Of a stretch of 8,932 bases of DNA, positions 1,791 through 8,571 are shown in pieces. How positions within the stretch are numbered: position 1 is the stretch's first letter; each line of letters starts with the position of its first letter. The notes under the pieces were generated by a model that was given only the letters and a program-made list of their open reading frames with translations, was not told the DNA's origin and searched no databases. The translations under genes were made by a program, and so were the position numbers. Source of the stretch: Myxococcota bacterium (GTDB lineage Bacteria; Myxococcota; Polyangia; GCA-2747355; JAKLHH01); NCBI GenBank assembly GCA_022710245.1, contig JAKLHH010000241.1:1-8932 (forward strand). Reading direction: 5' to 3'.

Positions 1791-3305
1791 TCAGCCGTCG
1801 AAGCGCAGCTTCAGCACCCAGCGCTCCCACTCCTTCTGGAACGCCTGGAGGTCGCTGCGGCCGAGGACCCGCTTCAGCGTCTCGTAGCCCGTCGGGTCCT
1901 GCGCCTGCGCGGCGCGAAGCTCGCGGAAGTAGCGACGCAGGAGCTTGTGCTCCTGCAGGTAATAGCAGAGGTAGCGCGCCTGCGCGTAGTTGGTGCCCTT
2001 GTCCTGCTGGTAGAACTGCTTGTCCGTCGTGGCGAGGAGCTCCTTGAACGACGGGAGCCCGTCGCCCTCGATGGCCTCCTGCAGGCCCGCGAGCCGCCAG
2101 TTGGTGTAGCCCGTGATGTGCCCGTCCTCGTCGCCGCACTGCTCGAAGAGCGAGCCCATCCCCTCGTTGAGCCAGGCCGGGCAGCGCGGGAAGTTCGCGC
2201 GCATGAAGGGGTGGACGATCTCGTGCACCAGCGTGCCTCCGCCGGTGGCGATGTTCATCACCAGCGCGTGGTGGCTGGCGAGGTAGTAGCCGTAGGGCGT
2301 GTCGGGCTCCTCCTTGAAGAGGCGCCGTGACGCGCTCCGGTAGGTCTTCGCGTCCTTGAAGAGCCAGATGTCGATGATCTCCTCCGGGTCGCGCTCGAAG
2401 AAGTCCTGCTTCAGGCGGAGGGCCGCCCACTTCACCGTCCGCTCCGCGCGATCGCGCACGCGCTCCGGCGACTCGTCGCCGATCACGACGAAGGGCGGCT
2501 GCACGACGATGGTGACCACCGTGCCTGTCAGCTTCTCGCGCAGCTTGCGCACGTGCTGGGCGAAGCGCGCGGCCAGGGCGGGCCTCACCGGGCGTGCGGC
2601 GCGCGCCGCCGCGCTCGGCTCCAGCCGCAGGCGGATCAGCGTGGCCTCCTTCTCTCCCTGGAGCGGCCAGAGGTCGAGGAAGCGCGAGCGCGCCATCCGG
2701 CGGTAGGCGCCGTCTGCCTCGGCGGGCTCGTGGTAGATCACCTCGTCGCTCGAGGCGCGGTAGCCGAGGACCAGGCGGAAGTGCTCCGTGGTCCCGGGGC
2801 TGTCGTCGTAGTGACCGCAGACGATGGAGGGGACGCCGCGGAGGAGGTCCGCGTGGAGCGCACGCCACTCCTGCTCGGCGCCCTCGGCGGTGCGGCTCGC
2901 GGGCACGCGCCGCCAGACGGGCCCGACCTTGAAGCCGAGGCGGGTCGCCGCCCGGACCAGCTCCGCGGTGTAGGCTCCCCGCCCCTCGGCGGGATCGACG
3001 CCGGCCTGCTCGAAGACGTCGTCCTGGCTGACCCGCGCCCCCAGCTTGCGCAGCGCCATCTCGACGCAGGCCTCACCGCAGAAGTCGGGCCGCTGCAGCA
3101 CGTGCGGCACGCCCTCGAGCAGCACGTCGGCGAGGCCGGCGCCTCCGCGCGGGTCGGGGCGGCCGCCCGGCGGGCTCTGGCGGCACCCGCCGGCGAGCAG
3201 CAGCGGCAGGATGACAGCTGACGCGATCCACGGTCGGGGCAGACGTGGAGCGGCGCCGCCCAGGTTGGGCGGTCGGGCGCAGCTGCCGCGATCAAGACCA
3301 GGCAT
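1791..3305 (-). CDS. Lipoprotein fusing a C39-like cysteine-peptidase domain to an HExxH metallopeptidase domain
   Basis: This is a 504-residue envelope protein. The start at 3305 is the only in-frame ATG close to the signal peptide; the one at 3371 would overlap the divergent gene. The SD is weak (AGGGA, 2 nt away). A long n-region (1-26), partly encoded by an intergenic repeat, precedes the hydrophobic core IASAVILPLLLAGGC with lipidated Cys41. Residues about 63-215 look like the Peptidase_C39_2 (papain-like) fold: Gln71, Cys76 in CGEAC, His175 in EHFRLVLGY, and YHEP at 191-194, where the usual Asp-Pro is Glu193-Pro. Residues about 260-500 resemble the peptidase-MA/DUF1570 gluzincins: HEIVH at 361-365 with Glu381 in WLNEGMG as likely third zinc ligand, then helical repeats. 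Both active sites look largely intact. Periplasmic or surface proteolysis or cell-wall peptide cleavage is inferred; substrates are unknown. The gene is divergent from the one at 3370. Confidence 0.85.
   Translation of the reverse strand: MPGLDRGSCARPPNLGGAAPRLPRPWIASAVILPLLLAGGCRQSPPGGRPDPRGGAGLADVLLEGVPHVLQRPDFCGEACVEMALRKLGARVSQDDVFEQAGVDPAEGRGAYTAELVRAATRLGFKVGPVWRRVPASRTAEGAEQEWRALHADLLRGVPSIVCGHYDDSPGTTEHFRLVLGYRASSDEVIYHEPAEADGAYRRMARSRFLDLWPLQGEKEATLIRLRLEPSAAARAARPVRPALAARFAQHVRKLREKLTGTVVTIVVQPPFVVIGDESPERVRDRAERTVKWAALRLKQDFFERDPEEIIDIWLFKDAKTYRSASRRLFKEEPDTPYGYYLASHHALVMNIATGGGTLVHEIVHPFMRANFPRCPAWLNEGMGSLFEQCGDEDGHITGYTNWRLAGLQEAIEGDGLPSFKELLATTDKQFYQQDKGTNYAQARYLCYYLQEHKLLRRYFRELRAAQAQDPTGYETLKRVLGRSDLQAFQKEWERWVLKLRFDG
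3247..3302 (+). repeat. Dispersed structured 56-bp repeat, copy A
   Basis: This copy aligns without gaps to copies B (46/56 identical) and C (48/56 identical). It contains a perfect 7-bp hairpin with a 3-nt loop, CCGCCCA-GGT-TGGGCGG (3256-3272), an outer 5-bp stem GCGGC/GCCGC (3250-3254 with 3285-3289) and the palindrome GCAGCTGC. Unlike B and C it lies inside a gene. Read on the minus strand it supplies residues 2-19 of the lipoprotein starting at 3305, and its plus-strand 3' end faces the gene starting at 3370. Confidence 0.85.
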
Positions 3306-3369
3306 CGTCCCTGATACGCTCCCGCGCTCGTCTATTATCCCCCAGGGACCGCGTGTACACTCTGATCTC
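3306..3369. promoter_or_regulatory. Divergent intergenic promoter region
   Basis: This 64-bp gap between two divergent genes is the most AT-containing stretch in the left half. For the plus-strand gene, CTGATA (3311-3316) and TATTAT (3333-3338) are separated by 16 nt and match the sigma70 consensus at 4/6 and 5/6. For the minus-strand gene, GATAAT (3339-3334) is a possible -10, but its -35 candidate TGTACA is only 14 nt away. An 8-bp palindrome GTGTACAC (3353-3360) is a possible regulator site in the leader of the plus gene, which has no clear SD. Confidence 0.4.
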
Positions 3370-4662
3370 ATGAAGCACCTCCGTCCCCTCCTCCTCGCCG
3401 CCGCCGCGCTCGGGCTCCTCGCGGGTTTGCTCGCGCTGCCTCGCTGCAGCGACCCCGCCTACTTCCCCGCCGAGGCAGGCCCGGTCGATGGTCCCTGGAC
3501 CTGGAAGGATCAGCCGCCGTCCTACCCCGACGTCTACACCAACCCCTGCGCGCCGAACCCGCCCCCGTCGGTGACCGGCCGCGTCCTCGCCCCGAACGGC
3601 ATCGACCCCGTCGCCGGCGCCTCGGTGCACGTGCCGCTCGCCATCACCCCGCTGCCGACCACCGTGCAGTGCGAGAGCTGCGCCGTGAAGGGCCGCTTCT
3701 CGGCGCACGTCTACACGAACGCCGACGGCACCTTCAAGCTGGTCGGGGTCCCCAACGGCACCTTCAAGCTCGGCATCCAGAAGGGCCACTTCCGCCGCTT
3801 CGTCGAGGTCACCGTCCCGCAGTGCGGCAACCTGGAGCTGACCAAGGAGCAGGCCACGCTGCCGGGCAAGAACGCCGCCTGGGACGCGCTCGACACCATC
3901 CCGAACATCGCGGTGGTGAGCGGCGCCTGGGACCACATGGAGAAGGTCCTCGACAAGCTCGGCGTGCAGCAGAAGACCATCTACAACGGCAAGGACTGGG
4001 GCACCGGCCCGGAGAGCGTGCAGGCCCTCCTGCAGAACGGCGCGCTGCTGCAGTCGTACCACCTGCTCCTCGTCGACTGCGGCACCAAGTTCGAGTCGCT
4101 GGTCACCTCGCCAGGCCCGGTGCGGAGCAACCTGCTCGCCTACGTACGCAAGGGCGGCCGCCTCTTCGTCACTGACTTCTCCTATGACTACGTCGAGCAG
4201 GTCTTCCCCGAGTTCATCGACTTCGAGGGCTCGGACGCCACGCCGGCCGCCCAGCCCGAGGAGCCGAACGCCGCCGAGGTGGGCACCCAGGACCTGGTGG
4301 TCCCGGCCGCCGTCGCCGACGCCGACCTCAAGGCGTGGCTCGGCCTGCCCGAGATCGGCGCGCTCCTCCCCGACGGGCACGTGCAGGTGACCGGGTTCAT
4401 GACCGGCTGGGCGGTGATGAAGTCCGTCAACACCGCGATCGGCGGCAAGGTCTGGACCACGGGCAGCGTCAAGTGGGCGGGCGGCGCCGGCGTGCGCCCG
4501 CTGGCGGCGACGCTGGACTTCCACGACAAGGACAGCCAGGGCTGCGGCCGCGTGCTCTTCTCCTCGTACCACACGCACGGCGAGCAGCCCGAGCTGCTGC
4601 CGCAAGAGCGCATCCTCGAGTACCTGATCCTCGAGATCGGCGCCTGCGGCAAGATCGAGTGA
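3370..4662 (+). CDS. Exported protein with carboxypeptidase-regulatory-like and GATase1/ThuA-like domains
   Basis: This is a 430-residue protein. The N-terminus MKHLRPLLLAAAALGLLAGLLALPRC is a clear export signal. Cys26 sits where a lipobox cysteine would be, but the preceding Pro-Arg is atypical, so lipidation is uncertain. Residues about 65-150 fit a carboxypeptidase-regulatory-like (Ig/transthyretin-type) domain: SVTGRVLAPNG, then YTNADGTFKLVGVPNGTFKL, ending in VEVTV. Residues about 178-285 resemble a class I glutamine amidotransferase/ThuA-like Rossmann fold (IAVVSGAWDHM, YHLLLVDCG, LLAYVRKGGRLFVTDFSYDY). A later strand, CGRVLFSSYHTHG (392-404), seems to complete that fold. Cys237 follows a hydrophobic strand in VDCG, but no amidotransferase triad can be assigned, so a non-enzymatic or ThuA-like role is as likely. 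Function is unknown. The stop is 65 bp from ubiE, and nearly all of that gap is repeat copy B. Confidence 0.82.
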   Translation: MKHLRPLLLAAAALGLLAGLLALPRCSDPAYFPAEAGPVDGPWTWKDQPPSYPDVYTNPCAPNPPPSVTGRVLAPNGIDPVAGASVHVPLAITPLPTTVQCESCAVKGRFSAHVYTNADGTFKLVGVPNGTFKLGIQKGHFRRFVEVTVPQCGNLELTKEQATLPGKNAAWDALDTIPNIAVVSGAWDHMEKVLDKLGVQQKTIYNGKDWGTGPESVQALLQNGALLQSYHLLLVDCGTKFESLVTSPGPVRSNLLAYVRKGGRLFVTDFSYDYVEQVFPEFIDFEGSDATPAAQPEEPNAAEVGTQDLVVPAAVADADLKAWLGLPEIGALLPDGHVQVTGFMTGWAVMKSVNTAIGGKVWTTGSVKWAGGAGVRPLAATLDFHDKDSQGCGRVLFSSYHTHGEQPELLPQERILEYLILEIGACGKIE

Positions 4663-4663
4663 T

Positions 4664-4719
4664 GGAGCGGCGCCCCGCACGCTGGGCGGTGGCGGGCAGC
4701 TGCCGCGACCAACAACAGG
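4664..4719 (+). repeat. Dispersed structured 56-bp repeat, copy B
   Basis: This is an ungapped match to copy A at 46 of 56 positions. It begins 2 nt after the stop of the upstream gene and ends 8 nt before the ubiE ATG, so it is almost the whole intergenic gap. The inner hairpin has shifted but persists (CGCCC 4671-4675 with GGGCG 4684-4688), and the centre carries the 10-bp palindrome GGCAGCTGCC. Its 3' end (CAGG) merges into the AGGGAG ribosome binding site of ubiE. Confidence 0.8.
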
Positions 4720-4727
4720 GAGAGCGC

Positions 4728-5411
4728 ATGCGCCCCGGCTCCGGTGAGATGTTCGACCGCGTCGCGGGTCGCTACGACCTGCTGAACCGGATCCTCTCCT
4801 TCGGCCTCGACCGCGGCTGGCGGCGGCGCGCGCTCGCGGCGCTGGAGCTGGGCGACGGCGCTCGCGTCCTCGACCTCGCCTGCGGCACGGGCGACCTGAC
4901 GCTGGCCCTGGCGCGAGGCGGCGCCCGCGTGGTCGGGGTGGATCCCTCTCGCGGCATGCTGGCCACGGGCCGCGCCAAGCTCGCGCGCGGGGACGTGCCC
5001 GCGGCGCTCACGCTCGGCGAGGCCGAGGCGCTCCCCTTCCCGGATGGCAGCTTCGACGCGGTGACCATGGCGTTCGGGATCCGCAACGTGCAGAGCCGCC
5101 CGCGGGCGCTCGCCGAGCTCCGGCGAGTGACCCGTCCTGAGGGGCGGGTCGCCATCCTCGAGCTCTCGGATCCCCGGCCCGGCCCGCTCGGGAGCCTGGC
5201 CCGCTTCTACCTGCAGCGGGTCGTGCCGCGGGTCGGGGCGATCCTCTCGGGCGCCCCTGAATACCTGTACTTGCGTGACTCGGTGCTGGCGTTCCCGGAG
5301 CCCGCCGCCTTCATCCTCGAGCTCGAGGCGGCGGGGCTGGCCCTGCTCGCCCACCAGCCCCTCGGGCCGGGCGGGTGCCACCTCTACCTCACCACCCCGC
5401 TCCAGGCTTGA
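4728..5411 (+). CDS. ubiE: Demethylmenaquinone/ubiquinone-biosynthesis C-methyltransferase (UbiE/MenG)
   Basis: This 227-residue protein is of normal size for the family. It catalyses the SAM-dependent C-methylation late in quinone synthesis; if the organism is a menaquinone user, as most myxobacteria are, the substrate is demethylmenaquinone. Seen in the sequence: the UbiE N-terminal signature FDRVAGRYDLLNRILSFGLD (9-28), SAM motif I VLDLACGTGD (48-57), the acidic VVGVDPS at 68-74, FDAVTMAFGIRNV (109-121), and LRRVTRPEGRVAILELSDP (131-149). The C-terminal block EYLYLRDSVLAFP (178-190) is also family-typical. The start is chosen for AGGGAG 5 nt upstream of the ATG. The protein is cytosolic or membrane-peripheral. 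The promoter of rpmE overlaps its last codons. Confidence is high for the family and moderate for the exact quinone. Confidence 0.95.
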   Translation: MRPGSGEMFDRVAGRYDLLNRILSFGLDRGWRRRALAALELGDGARVLDLACGTGDLTLALARGGARVVGVDPSRGMLATGRAKLARGDVPAALTLGEAEALPFPDGSFDAVTMAFGIRNVQSRPRALAELRRVTRPEGRVAILELSDPRPGPLGSLARFYLQRVVPRVGAILSGAPEYLYLRDSVLAFPEPAAFILELEAAGLALLAHQPLGPGGCHLYLTTPLQA

Positions 5412-5436
5412 CGCTCCCGCCTCCCCGCGCTATAGG
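5408..5436 (+). promoter_or_regulatory. Sigma70-type promoter of rpmE
   Basis: TTGACG (5408-5413) and TATAGG (5431-5436) are separated by exactly 17 nt, matching the consensus at 5/6 and 4/6. The -35 element contains the ubiE stop codon. A start near 5443 would leave a leader of about 14 nt carrying the GGAGG of rpmE. This is the best promoter in the window and implies that rpmE, and perhaps the genes after it, is transcribed independently of ubiE. Confidence 0.6.
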
Positions 5437-5456
5437 TCCACGTCTTGGAGGCCATG

Positions 5457-5675
5457 ATGAAGAAGGCTATTCATCCGAACTACCAGCCAGCGACCATCGA
5501 GTGCGCCTGCGGCGCCACCGTGCAGACCTACTCCACGCGCGGCTCCTTCAAGGTCGAGATCTGCTCCGCCTGCCACCCCTTCTACACCGGGAAGCAGAAG
5601 CTGATGGACTCGGCCGGTCGCATCGAGCGCTTCAACAAGAAGTACGGACGCGCTTCCGCCACGCCGAAGGAGTGA
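5457..5675 (+). CDS. rpmE: 50S ribosomal protein bL31, zinc-binding type
   Basis: This is a 72-residue large-subunit protein of the bL31 family. The start at 5457 (MKKAIHPNY) is preferred because GGAGG (5447-5451) lies 5 nt upstream and the N-terminus then matches known L31; the adjacent ATG at 5454 would leave only 2 nt. The zinc-ribbon cysteines are complete, with CxC at 16/18 and CxxC at 36/39, so this is the zinc-containing form rather than the Cys-free paralogue made under zinc starvation. HPFYTGKQK and [11 protein letters not shown] are highly conserved family segments. It has its own promoter and is followed 64 bp later by a DUF1385 gene and then prfA, a frequently seen neighbourhood. 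Confidence 0.97.
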
Positions 5676-5739
5676 TCCCTTCCTTCGCCGGGCGGCCGGG
5701 CTCCGTCCGCCTCCTCCCGCTCACCGACGGTAGCCCCGC

Positions 5740-6894
5740 ATGAGCAGCGCCCCCCAGAAGTGCAACGTCGGTGGTCAGGCCGTCATCGAAGGCGTGATGA
5801 TGCGCTCGCCAGCCTCGTTCGCCGTCGCTTGCCGGCGGCCGGGCGGCGAGATCGTCGTGCGTGAGGAGCGCTGGCGCGCGCTGACGGCGCGCCTGCGCCC
5901 GCTGCGCTGGCCGTTCCTCCGCGGCGCGGTGGTGCTCCTCGAGTCGCTCCTCAACGGGATGTCGGCGCTCTCCTTCTCGGCGAAGCAGCAGGAGGAGGCC
6001 AGCGGCCACGAGGGCGCTCCCGACGGCGCACGCACGGCCGCATCGACCGCCCCCGCCGCGACAGCGGCGTCGACCGCCTCCGCCGCGACAGCTGCGTCGA
6101 CCGCCGCCGCCGCGCCGGGCGCGTCGTCCGCCCCCGCCGCGCCGGACGTCCGCGCGCCTCGCGCGCCTCGCGAGCCCAGCTTCACCGGCATGCTGATCGT
6201 CTCGGTGCTGGCCGCGCTGCTCGTCTTCAAGGGGCTCCCGCACCTGCTCACCTGGCTCCTCGGGCTGAAGACCAGCTCGATCTCCTTCCACCTCGTCGAC
6301 GGCGGCTTCAAGGTCCTGCTGCTGGTGGGCTACATCGCCTCGATCGGGCTGATGAAGGACATCCGGCGCGTCTTCATGTACCACGGCGCCGAGCACAAGG
6401 CGATCTGGGCCCACGAGAAGGGGCTCGAGCTCACCGTCGAGAACGTGCGCCGCGAATCGCGCTTCCACCCGCGCTGCGGCACCTCCTTCCTGGTGCTGGT
6501 GATCCTGATCAGCGTCTTCATCTTCGCGCTGCTCCTGCGCTACCCGATCTCCCAGGTCGCGCTCGTCGACAACCTCGTCAAGATCCTGATCAAGGTGCCG
6601 CTGATGTTCCCGGTGGCGGGGCTGAGCTACGAGGCGATCAAGCTCTCGGCGCGCTTTCGCGAGAGCCCGATCGTCCGCGCGCTCGTCGCTCCCGGCCTCT
6701 GGCTGCAGCGGCTGACCACGCGCGAGCCGACGGATGACCAGCTCGAGGTCTCTCTGGTCGCGCTGCAGAAGACGCTCTGGCGCGAGCGCGCGACCAGCGA
6801 GGTCGGCGAGGTGGGCGAGGGCGGCGTCGAGGTCTTCGCGACCTACGCCGAGGCGCTCCCCTCCCTCAAGGGCGGAGAGCCGGCCGCGGCCTGA
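5740..6894 (+). CDS. DUF1385 (YqhQ-like) multi-pass membrane protein with Ala-rich insert
   Basis: This is a 384-residue membrane protein of the DUF1385 family. Family landmarks are VGGQAVIEGVMMRSP (10-24), YHGAEHKAI (214-222) and RFHPRCGTSF (241-250). Hydrophobic segments lie at about 148-176, 190-206 and 249-268, with a further weakly hydrophobic segment around 280-298. The biochemical role of the family is not established; conserved His/Cys residues (H215, H219, H243, C246) could bind a metal, which is inference. Residues 98-133 are an alanine/serine/threonine-rich insert built from four 9-residue repeats, followed by a Pro/Arg/Ala stretch to about 146, forming a flexible linker before the first membrane segment. 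No good SD is visible before the ATG, so the start is less certain than the rest, though the conserved N-terminal motif supports it. Its position between rpmE and prfA is typical of the family. Confidence 0.9.
   Translation: MSSAPQKCNVGGQAVIEGVMMRSPASFAVACRRPGGEIVVREERWRALTARLRPLRWPFLRGAVVLLESLLNGMSALSFSAKQQEEASGHEGAPDGARTAASTAPAATAASTASAATAASTAAAAPGASSAPAAPDVRAPRAPREPSFTGMLIVSVLAALLVFKGLPHLLTWLLGLKTSSISFHLVDGGFKVLLLVGYIASIGLMKDIRRVFMYHGAEHKAIWAHEKGLELTVENVRRESRFHPRCGTSFLVLVILISVFIFALLLRYPISQVALVDNLVKILIKVPLMFPVAGLSYEAIKLSARFRESPIVRALVAPGLWLQRLTTREPTDDQLEVSLVALQKTLWRERATSEVGEVGEGGVEVFATYAEALPSLKGGEPAAA
6031..6138 (+). repeat. Coding 27-bp tandem repeat, four units, in the DUF1385 gene
   Basis: Four in-frame units start at 6031, 6058, 6085 and 6112. 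They encode RTAASTAPA, ATAASTASA, ATAASTAAA and APGASSAPA. Units two and three are nearly identical at DNA level, which suggests recent slippage. Because the unit is a multiple of three, copy number can change without breaking the frame, so linker length may vary between strains. Confidence 0.85.
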
Positions 6895-6897
6895 GCG

Positions 6898-6929
6898 CGG
6901 CGGCCAGCGCCGCCGACAGCTCCCTGTCG
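6898..6929 (+). other. Two overlapping stem-loops after the DUF1385 gene
   Basis: CGGCGGC-CAGC-GCCGCCG (6898-6915) and CGACAG-CTCC-CTGTCG (6914-6929) are both perfect stems and share two bases. The right arm of the second also overlaps the left outer arm of repeat copy C (6926-6933), so the three structures compete. No T-run follows. They could be a processing or Rho-independent-like site between the DUF1385 gene and prfA, or chance folding of GC-rich DNA. Confidence 0.35.
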
Positions 6930-6981
6930 CGGCGCCGCCCAGGTCAGGCGGTCGGGCGTAGCTGCCGCGACCAACACCCGG
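6926..6981 (+). repeat. Dispersed structured 56-bp repeat, copy C
   Basis: This copy is identical to copy A at 48 of 56 positions, without gaps. It has the best outer stem of the three copies, a perfect 8-bp pair GTCGCGGC (6926-6933) / GCCGCGAC (6964-6971), and an inner 5-bp hairpin CCGCC/GGCGG (6935-6939 with 6947-6951). It ends 13 nt before the prfA ATG and lies just upstream of its GAGG ribosome binding site. Confidence 0.85.
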
Positions 6982-6994
6982 TGAGGACACGCTG

Positions 6995-8068
<1,074 letters not shown>

Positions 8069-8099: not shown

Positions 8100-8294
8100 T
8101 CAGACCCGCCTGACGGATCCCCTCTCGAGCAGCCGCTCGAGCTCCGCGAGGAGCGCCCGCTCGTCCTCGTCGATCTGCTCGTCCTCGCGCGCGAGCTCGA
8201 GGATGGCCTGGTGCTCGGCCTCGGTGAGCTCATGGTCGCTGATGGCCTTGCTGATCATCGCGGCGAGGCGCCCGGCGCTCTTGCTGGCTCTCAT
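8100..8294 (-). CDS. Small acidic helical protein, paralogue of its neighbour
   Basis: This 64-residue protein is led by a very strong ribosome binding site (GGAGGAGGAGGT, 4 nt from the ATG). It is clearly paralogous to the gene at 8368-8571: both share SKSA(G/P)RLAA near the N-terminus, DHELTEAE (20-27 here), the segment ID(E/K)(D/E)ERALL(A/E)EL, and the ending GSV(R/K)RV. Two similar halves are visible: DHELTEAEHQAIL (20-32) and DEQIDEDERALL (38-49), each an acidic turn followed by a helix. The second half resembles the acidic-turn helices of TerB-like proteins, but the protein is far too short to be a full TerB. There is no signal peptide or membrane segment, so it is probably cytosolic. 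Function is unknown. It is convergent with prfA, with 31 bp between stops. Confidence 0.8.
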   Translation of the reverse strand: MRASKSAGRLAAMISKAISDHELTEAEHQAILELAREDEQIDEDERALLAELERLLERGSVRRV

Positions 8295-8367
8295 CTCGAC
8301 CTCCTCCTCCTCGAGTGACGGCGCCCCGCGGTCGAGTCGCTCAGCGCGAGCTCGCTCCGCGCGCGGC

Positions 8368-8571
8368 TCACGGCACGCGCTTGACGCTCCCGTTGTCGAT
8401 CAGGTGCTGCAGCTCCTCGAGCAGCGCCCGCTCCTCCTTGTCGATGTGGTGGTCCTCGTCGGCGATCGCCAGGATCTCCTTCAGCTCGGCCTCGGTCAGC
8501 TCGTGGTCGTGGATCGCCTTCTTGATCCGCGCGGCGAGGCGCGGGGCGCTCTTGCTGGGCTTGATCGGCAT
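8368..8571 (-). CDS. Small acidic helical protein, paralogue of its neighbour
   Basis: This 67-residue protein has GGAG 8 nt upstream of its ATG. It is the upstream member of a tandem pair, 73 bp before the second. A basic N-terminus (KPSKSAPRLAARIKKAI) precedes the two-fold pattern DHELTEAELKEIL (22-34) and DHHIDKEERALL (40-51), and it ends GSVKRVP. The paired acidic turns recall EF-hand or TerB-like helix-turn-helix units, but the spacing does not fit a canonical calcium loop. Conservation of both copies at the protein level argues that both are real genes. Function is unknown. TTGACG at 8626-8621, overlapping the stop of the upstream gene, could be a -35, but no good -10 is seen at the right distance. 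Confidence 0.8.
   Translation of the reverse strand: MPIKPSKSAPRLAARIKKAIHDHELTEAELKEILAIADEDHHIDKEERALLEELQHLIDNGSVKRVP

Follow-up and report, generated by a model that had tools for sequence, protein, structure and literature searches.

We analysed positions 1 to 8932 of contig JAKLHH010000241.1 of a Myxococcota bacterium (assembly GCA_022710245.1), and this whole stretch of 8932 bp is called the window below. It contains a foldable 56-bp repeat, first noticed in an earlier note made from the letters of the window, whose likeness to repetitive extragenic palindromes (REPs) is weighed here. The three copies of the repeat are placed as follows.

3247..3302, plus strand: copy A, overlapping codons 2-20 (the 20th in part) of a minus-strand reading frame for a C39 peptidase
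4664..4719, plus strand: copy B, in a gap of 65 bp that separates a gene with a carboxypeptidase regulatory domain (stop 4662) from ubiE (start 4728)
6926..6981, plus strand: copy C, in a gap of 100 bp that separates a DUF1385 gene (stop 6894) from prfA (start 6995)

The repeat and its surroundings

The copies align over 56 bp without gaps, with 46/56 identical positions between A and B, 48/56 between A and C and 42/56 between B and C; the coordinates and the two identities to copy A given in the earlier note are thus reproduced. In simulated windows of equal base-step frequencies (first-order Markov model), the best ungapped pair of 56-mers reached 35-37 identities in six cases out of six, far below the values of the copies. 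Hence, chance is excluded for the three copies. The divergence between copies is 14-25%, and their similarity stops sharply at either end, a T at position -1 being the only adjoining column that they share. The only other pairs in the window which are equally similar belong to tandem paralogous reading frames near 8100-8570: two small minus-strand frames (8100-8294 and 8368-8571, 64 and 67 amino acids), 77% identical in DNA over 184 nt and matching no Pfam family at E 0.001.

The genes and the candidate promoter around the copies are listed below.

ATG at 3305, minus strand: gene of a C39-type peptidase (P0093, 504 residues), identified by Pfam
3311..3338, plus strand: sigma-70-like site CTGATA-16-TATTAT, a match to the consensus and an unproven promoter, downstream of copy A and before the gene at 3370
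3370-4662, plus strand: lipoprotein-like gene with a carboxypeptidase regulatory domain (Pfam match below the curated cut-off)
4728-5411, plus strand: ubiE (Pfam)
5454-5675, plus strand: rpmE (Pfam)
5740-6894, plus strand: DUF1385 gene (Pfam)
6995-8068, plus strand: prfA (Pfam)

Copy B starts 1 nt past the preceding stop codon and occupies 56 of the 65 bp of the gap 4662-4728, while copy C starts 31 nt past the stop codon before it. Copy B ends 8 nt ahead of the start codon of ubiE, and copy C 13 nt ahead of that of prfA. From 3370 to 8068, only 64 of the 4643 possible positions of a 56-mer lie wholly outside the five plus-strand genes, and copies B and C are both found there. Copy A is antisense to the coding sequence of residues 2-20 of the C39 peptidase called from ATG 3305; the only other in-frame ATG, GTG or TTG near this start is ATG 3371, further upstream. 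Of the best 119 among 6443 matched C39 homologues, 20 have an extrapolated start no later than query residue 1, 46 have it inside residues 2-20 and 53 have it beyond residue 20. As the starts of homologues vary in this way, the stretch encoded by copy A is not a constant part of the C39 protein. Because copy A overlaps a called gene on the opposite strand, the intergenic placement which the earlier note ascribed to the whole repeat is clear for copies B and C only and has to be restricted to these two.

The common hairpin

The three copies can adopt one and the same hairpin, located as follows.

3250..3289, plus strand: shared hairpin of copy A (columns 4-43 of the alignment); the minimum free energy (MFE) fold of this copy favours a different inner hairpin
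4667..4706, plus strand: shared hairpin of copy B (columns 4-43); the MFE fold is the shared fold with 2 additional outer pairs
6929..6968, plus strand: shared hairpin of copy C (columns 4-43); the MFE fold is the shared fold with 3 additional outer pairs

This hairpin of 40 nt pairs columns 4-20 with columns 25-43 in 16 pairs around a loop of 4, with a single base of the 5' side and three bases of the 3' side left unpaired; the last 13 nt of the element, a partly conserved 3' tail, remain unpaired. All 48 cells (16 pairs in three copies) are paired. The bases are invariant at 11 pairs, changed on one side at 2 and changed on both sides at 3, namely pairs 12-32, 14-30 and 17-28, where copy B differs from A and C. 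Changes between U-G and C-G are found at pairs 19-26 and 20-25. When the partner strand was slid by 1-3 columns either way, no two-sided change appeared in any of the six controls. The observation of the earlier note is confirmed, with corrections; a point against the shared fold is that copy A alone prefers another inner hairpin.

We compared these counts with a null model in which as many substitutions as observed are placed at random and the consensus fold is optimised anew for every simulated triple. Three or more two-sided pairs appeared in 247 of 6000 unstructured triples; 18 of these had at most one broken pair and none was free of broken pairs. A separate run of 3000 triples gave 150 with at least three such pairs, one of them without a broken pair. 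The consensus fold found by the same program for the real copies has 18 pairs, 3 of them two-sided, and 1 broken cell. With the fold held fixed, three two-sided pairs were obtained in 7 of 3000 simulations.

Search in relatives and sequence collections

A covariance model of the repeat (R1) gives 82-85 bits to the copies of the window and 12.8 bits to the next best place in it. With this model, 8 of 8 genomes were matched at E <= 1 (best 24.2 bits) and 33 of 59 close relatives at E <= 0.5 (best 31.1 bits), and a BLAST search with copy C among 96 genomes of the class gave 17 at E <= 0.01, with no more than 43 of 60 query bases covered. We judged these weak matches to be due to chance. Eight R1 alignments were looked at individually, together with seven weak places of one genome (G043), each of which lies inside at least one open frame of more than 300 codons. 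The search of related genomes with a covariance model, as the earlier note had proposed, therefore brought no convincing copy; it should be read with the fact that the R1 and BLAST genome searches scored part of the first-look candidates of each genome (at most 150, 96 and 9) and that stricter filters were used for the 59 genomes, so that weak relatives of the repeat could escape.

A pattern of 32 fixed bases, which recovers all three copies of the window exactly, had no match with up to 3 mismatches in 282 genomes sampled from the phylum, and the exact pattern had none in 84,980 species genomes. Four patterns gave no match in viral contigs. A 17-base core was present in five viral contigs, three of which carry one and the same sequence; their flanks are by eye unlike the repeat, and R1 gives these five loci at most 17.7 bits (15.7 at the core match in locus L160). 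Copy C had three matches in phage records and one in plasmid records, at E 0.09-0.4, none of them covering 80% of the query, which we also judged to be chance. In Rfam nothing matched at the copies, and the only hit that the window has at E <= 1 (1732-1836, E 0.77) is far below its cut-off. The literature searches made here returned no paper on a RAYT-linked REP with GGAG and none on an intergenic repeat of Myxococcus xanthus.

The nearest relatives were ranked, among 39 genomes, by the identity of their lipoprotein: G029 (62%), G021 (56%) and G036 (55%). In all three, the genes of the lipoprotein, rpmE and prfA are consecutive, with no ubiE or DUF1385 gene between them, and the element is absent from the lipoprotein-rpmE and rpmE-prfA gaps, where R1 finds no match up to E 1; the contig of G021 ends 56 bp upstream of the lipoprotein gene and does not cover the site of copy A. 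The order rpmE-DUF1385-prfA is found in more distant genomes (loci L001, L002, L015, L017 and L038). Perhaps the DUF1385 gene was lost in the three nearest relatives and ubiE gained in the lineage of the window.

RAYT-linked REPs have the gene of a cognate Y1 transposase (RAYT) in their own genome, with the repeat on its flanks. Transposases of the Y1 type (PF01797) are present in 25 of the 59 relatives, with 12 matches in G021. In 11 of these 12 loci R1 gives nothing above 14.4 bits. In at least four of the 11 (L195, L196, L198 and L200) the gene is flanked on either side by inverted repeats of 73-257 bp, as are the tyrosine transposases with terminal inverted repeats that appear in PMC3733652.

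A probable REP-like repeat and the rival explanations

We put at roughly 0.55 the probability that the repeat is a lineage-specific, dispersed palindromic repeat of the REP kind. This kind fits because the fold is kept despite the changes of sequence, because copies B and C lie in gaps after genes, because the element ends sharply, and because the element is not found in relatives. REPs are described as imperfect palindromes of 21-65 nt which form a hairpin (PMC6006769), and our 16-pair hairpin over 40 nt falls within this description. According to the parts of PMC3733652 that treat Pseudomonas entomophila and Sphingomonas wittichi, REPs between genes of the same direction lie near the 3' end of the upstream gene; its section 5 reports that the stems of one REP family may have G-T pairs and alternative complementary residues. 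The repeat would then be a short sequence that is or once was mobile, and its hairpin, arising in single-stranded DNA, would be the unit recognised during copying to new sites, possibly by an HUH/Y1 enzyme of the RAYT type, and many more copies would be expected in the genome. Copies would persist at sites where little damage results, either in a gap behind a stop codon or at the 5' margin of a gene. In transcripts the hairpin may, in addition, modulate the mRNA, an effect that has been proposed for REPs.

Among the closest known systems are the GTAG-1 type REPs of Pseudomonas and Xanthomonas, which are also short GC-rich palindromes with alternative complementary stem residues, G-T pairs and unpaired bases at the foot, and which lie in gene gaps as copies B and C do. 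The foot of copies A and B, GGAGCGGC...GCCGCGA, resembles, in a comparison made post hoc, that of REPs listed in Table 1 of PMC2817692, such as Pput3 with TGTGGGAGCGGCC..GTCGCGA. The repeat differs from this type by its length (a hairpin of 40 nt and a 3' tail of 13 nt, against about 20-26 nt), by the lack of GT[AG]G in two of the three copies and by the lack of GGA in copy C. With CGTC-tagged REPs it shares a short hairpin followed by a short 3' tail, and the TGTC before the stem of copy C is among the tag variants (TGTC and CCTC) listed in the part of PMC3733652 that describes them. However, the tag is missing in A and B, and the stem begins with GCGGC, whereas the same source gives CGTC-tagged REPs a stem of 8-9 bp opening with A-T pairs and a loop of 4-5 bases; with a tag variant in C only and a misfit of stem and loop, this class was rejected.

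Integron attC sites are of comparable size, keep their fold better than their sequence and stand in one orientation near genes. Their core boxes R'' and R' read RYYYAAC and GTTRRRY. We set this class aside, as no such boxes were seen by eye where expected; the neighbours of the repeat, moreover, include the chromosomal genes ubiE, rpmE and prfA. A classic miniature inverted-repeat transposable element (MITE) was rejected as well: no terminal inverted repeats span the element, whose 3' 13 nt stay unpaired in the shared fold, and no target-site duplication is visible by eye in the flanks. A known structured RNA family was discarded for want of an Rfam match at the copies, and a terminator was set aside on its features.

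Several observations weigh against a REP-like repeat. Inverted dimers, or bacterial interspersed mosaic elements (BIMEs), in which REPs are often paired, are absent from the window, which holds three single copies of one orientation; single REPs also occur. RAYT-linked REPs carry GT[AG]G at the 5' foot of the hairpin (PMC2817692, PMC6006769); copy A alone has it, as GTGG, one base off the stem and a loose fit, while B reads ATGG and C reads CTGT. REPs usually exceed 100 copies per genome, according to PMC2817692; here three copies are known, all within 3.7 kb of the 8932-bp window, which is the part of this genome that was searched. The 400 kb searched of the 8 Mb of G029 show no such repeat family (no 16-mer is present more than 6 times, and depth 3 is attained at just 5 spots), and two of the three nearest relatives, G029 and G036, have no Y1 transposase. 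The gap before prfA does not prove an insertion: its 100 bp amount to 44 bp plus the element, and the median DUF1385-prfA gap is 21 bp over 58 loci (rows with a misplaced start or stop, negative or near 1000, being kept in the count), but the myxobacterial loci L015, L017 and L038 have gaps of 90, 79 and 68 bp. As for the fold, all three compensatory swaps are confined to copy B, and copy A alone reaches an MFE of -24.3 kcal/mol against -19.5 for the shared fold. The folding energies of the single copies on the plus strand (z = -0.09, -0.89 and -1.38) are ordinary for GC-rich sequence. The excess of compensatory changes over random sequence, to which the earlier note had attached importance, is seen in the simulations of random substitution (18 of 6000 with at most one broken pair) and less so in shuffles of the three rows, a weak control in which 18 of 500 reached the observed values.

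Local duplication is an unlikely explanation. An ancestral palindromic spacer would have been copied twice within the cluster, by recombination or template switching, with no wider family behind it; this agrees with the confinement of the known copies to 3.7 kb and with the lack of a convincing copy in the other sequence searched. Against it stand the 14-25% by which the copies differ, the three separate gene borders involved and the flanks, which share nothing past one adjoining base. This last point shows that no flanking DNA was carried along.

It is rather improbable that the element is a cis-acting leader RNA, a hairpin in the 5' untranslated mRNA of ubiE and prfA which sets translation or decay next to the ribosome binding site. 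The short distances from B and C to the start codons and a fold kept with G-U pairs on the plus strand would suit such a role. Copy A, however, lies within the divergent gene, at the 5' end of its coding sequence, and upstream of the sigma-70-like site, the only one found in 3200-7050 and thus the only one before the next plus-strand gene; what the copies share is therefore nearness to gene ends and not a leader-RNA position. The neighbours (C39 peptidase, carboxypeptidase-like lipoprotein, ubiE and prfA) have no evident common function, and the element does not precede prfA in the three nearest relatives searched. The single strand on which all copies lie, given as an argument in the earlier note, has little weight, as three copies share one orientation with a probability of 1/4. 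The interpretation given there, a selected or mobile element or a cis-acting RNA, is partly supported: the REP-like element has the best support; the RNA is weakened by the place of copy A, by neighbours with no evident common function and by the absence of an Rfam match at the copies, and the signs of a classic MITE are not seen.

Palindrome correction, by which template switching in a quasi-palindrome at replication would have made the compensatory changes and left the repeat as neutral debris, is a general mechanism and could explain why the three swaps are in one copy; we hold it to be quite improbable, with 11 of 16 pairs invariant and no broken cell, although such counts from three copies say little in either direction.

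Hence, the repeat probably works like a REP, and a leader-RNA role of copies B and C is possible as a side effect. We do not file it among RAYT-linked REPs, because the foot is loosely matched at A only and inverted pairs are lacking in the window. There is a slim chance that it belongs to an undescribed family of mobile repeats with a single-strand hairpin, from an unsampled delta/myxococcal lineage, in which the 3' tail is conserved and a GT[AG]G foot is lacking; it would be copied by an enzyme outside the known RAYTs and have its hairpin placed beside the ribosome binding sites of core genes, for example prfA. If many copies exist, this lineage would add a REP-like family whose fold is kept by paired changes and whose foot departs from the GT[AG]G rule, and this would help to establish what the copying enzyme actually recognises. 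With three copies on one contig, the finding is modest and fairly ordinary.

Three other features of the window may be mentioned. The minus-strand gene at 640-1491 encodes a cysteine-rich, lipoprotein-like protein of 283 amino acids with internal repeats of about 75 bp, and it matches no Pfam family at E 0.001. A palindrome (1560-1610, seen by eye) with perfect 11-bp arms, GAATTCGCCCT and AGGGCGAATTC, around an inner GCCTCC/GGAGGC hairpin lies upstream of the minus-strand gene starting near 1491. Within the DUF1385 gene, a repeated 27-bp unit (6034-6141) encodes a stretch rich in Ala, Thr and Ser.

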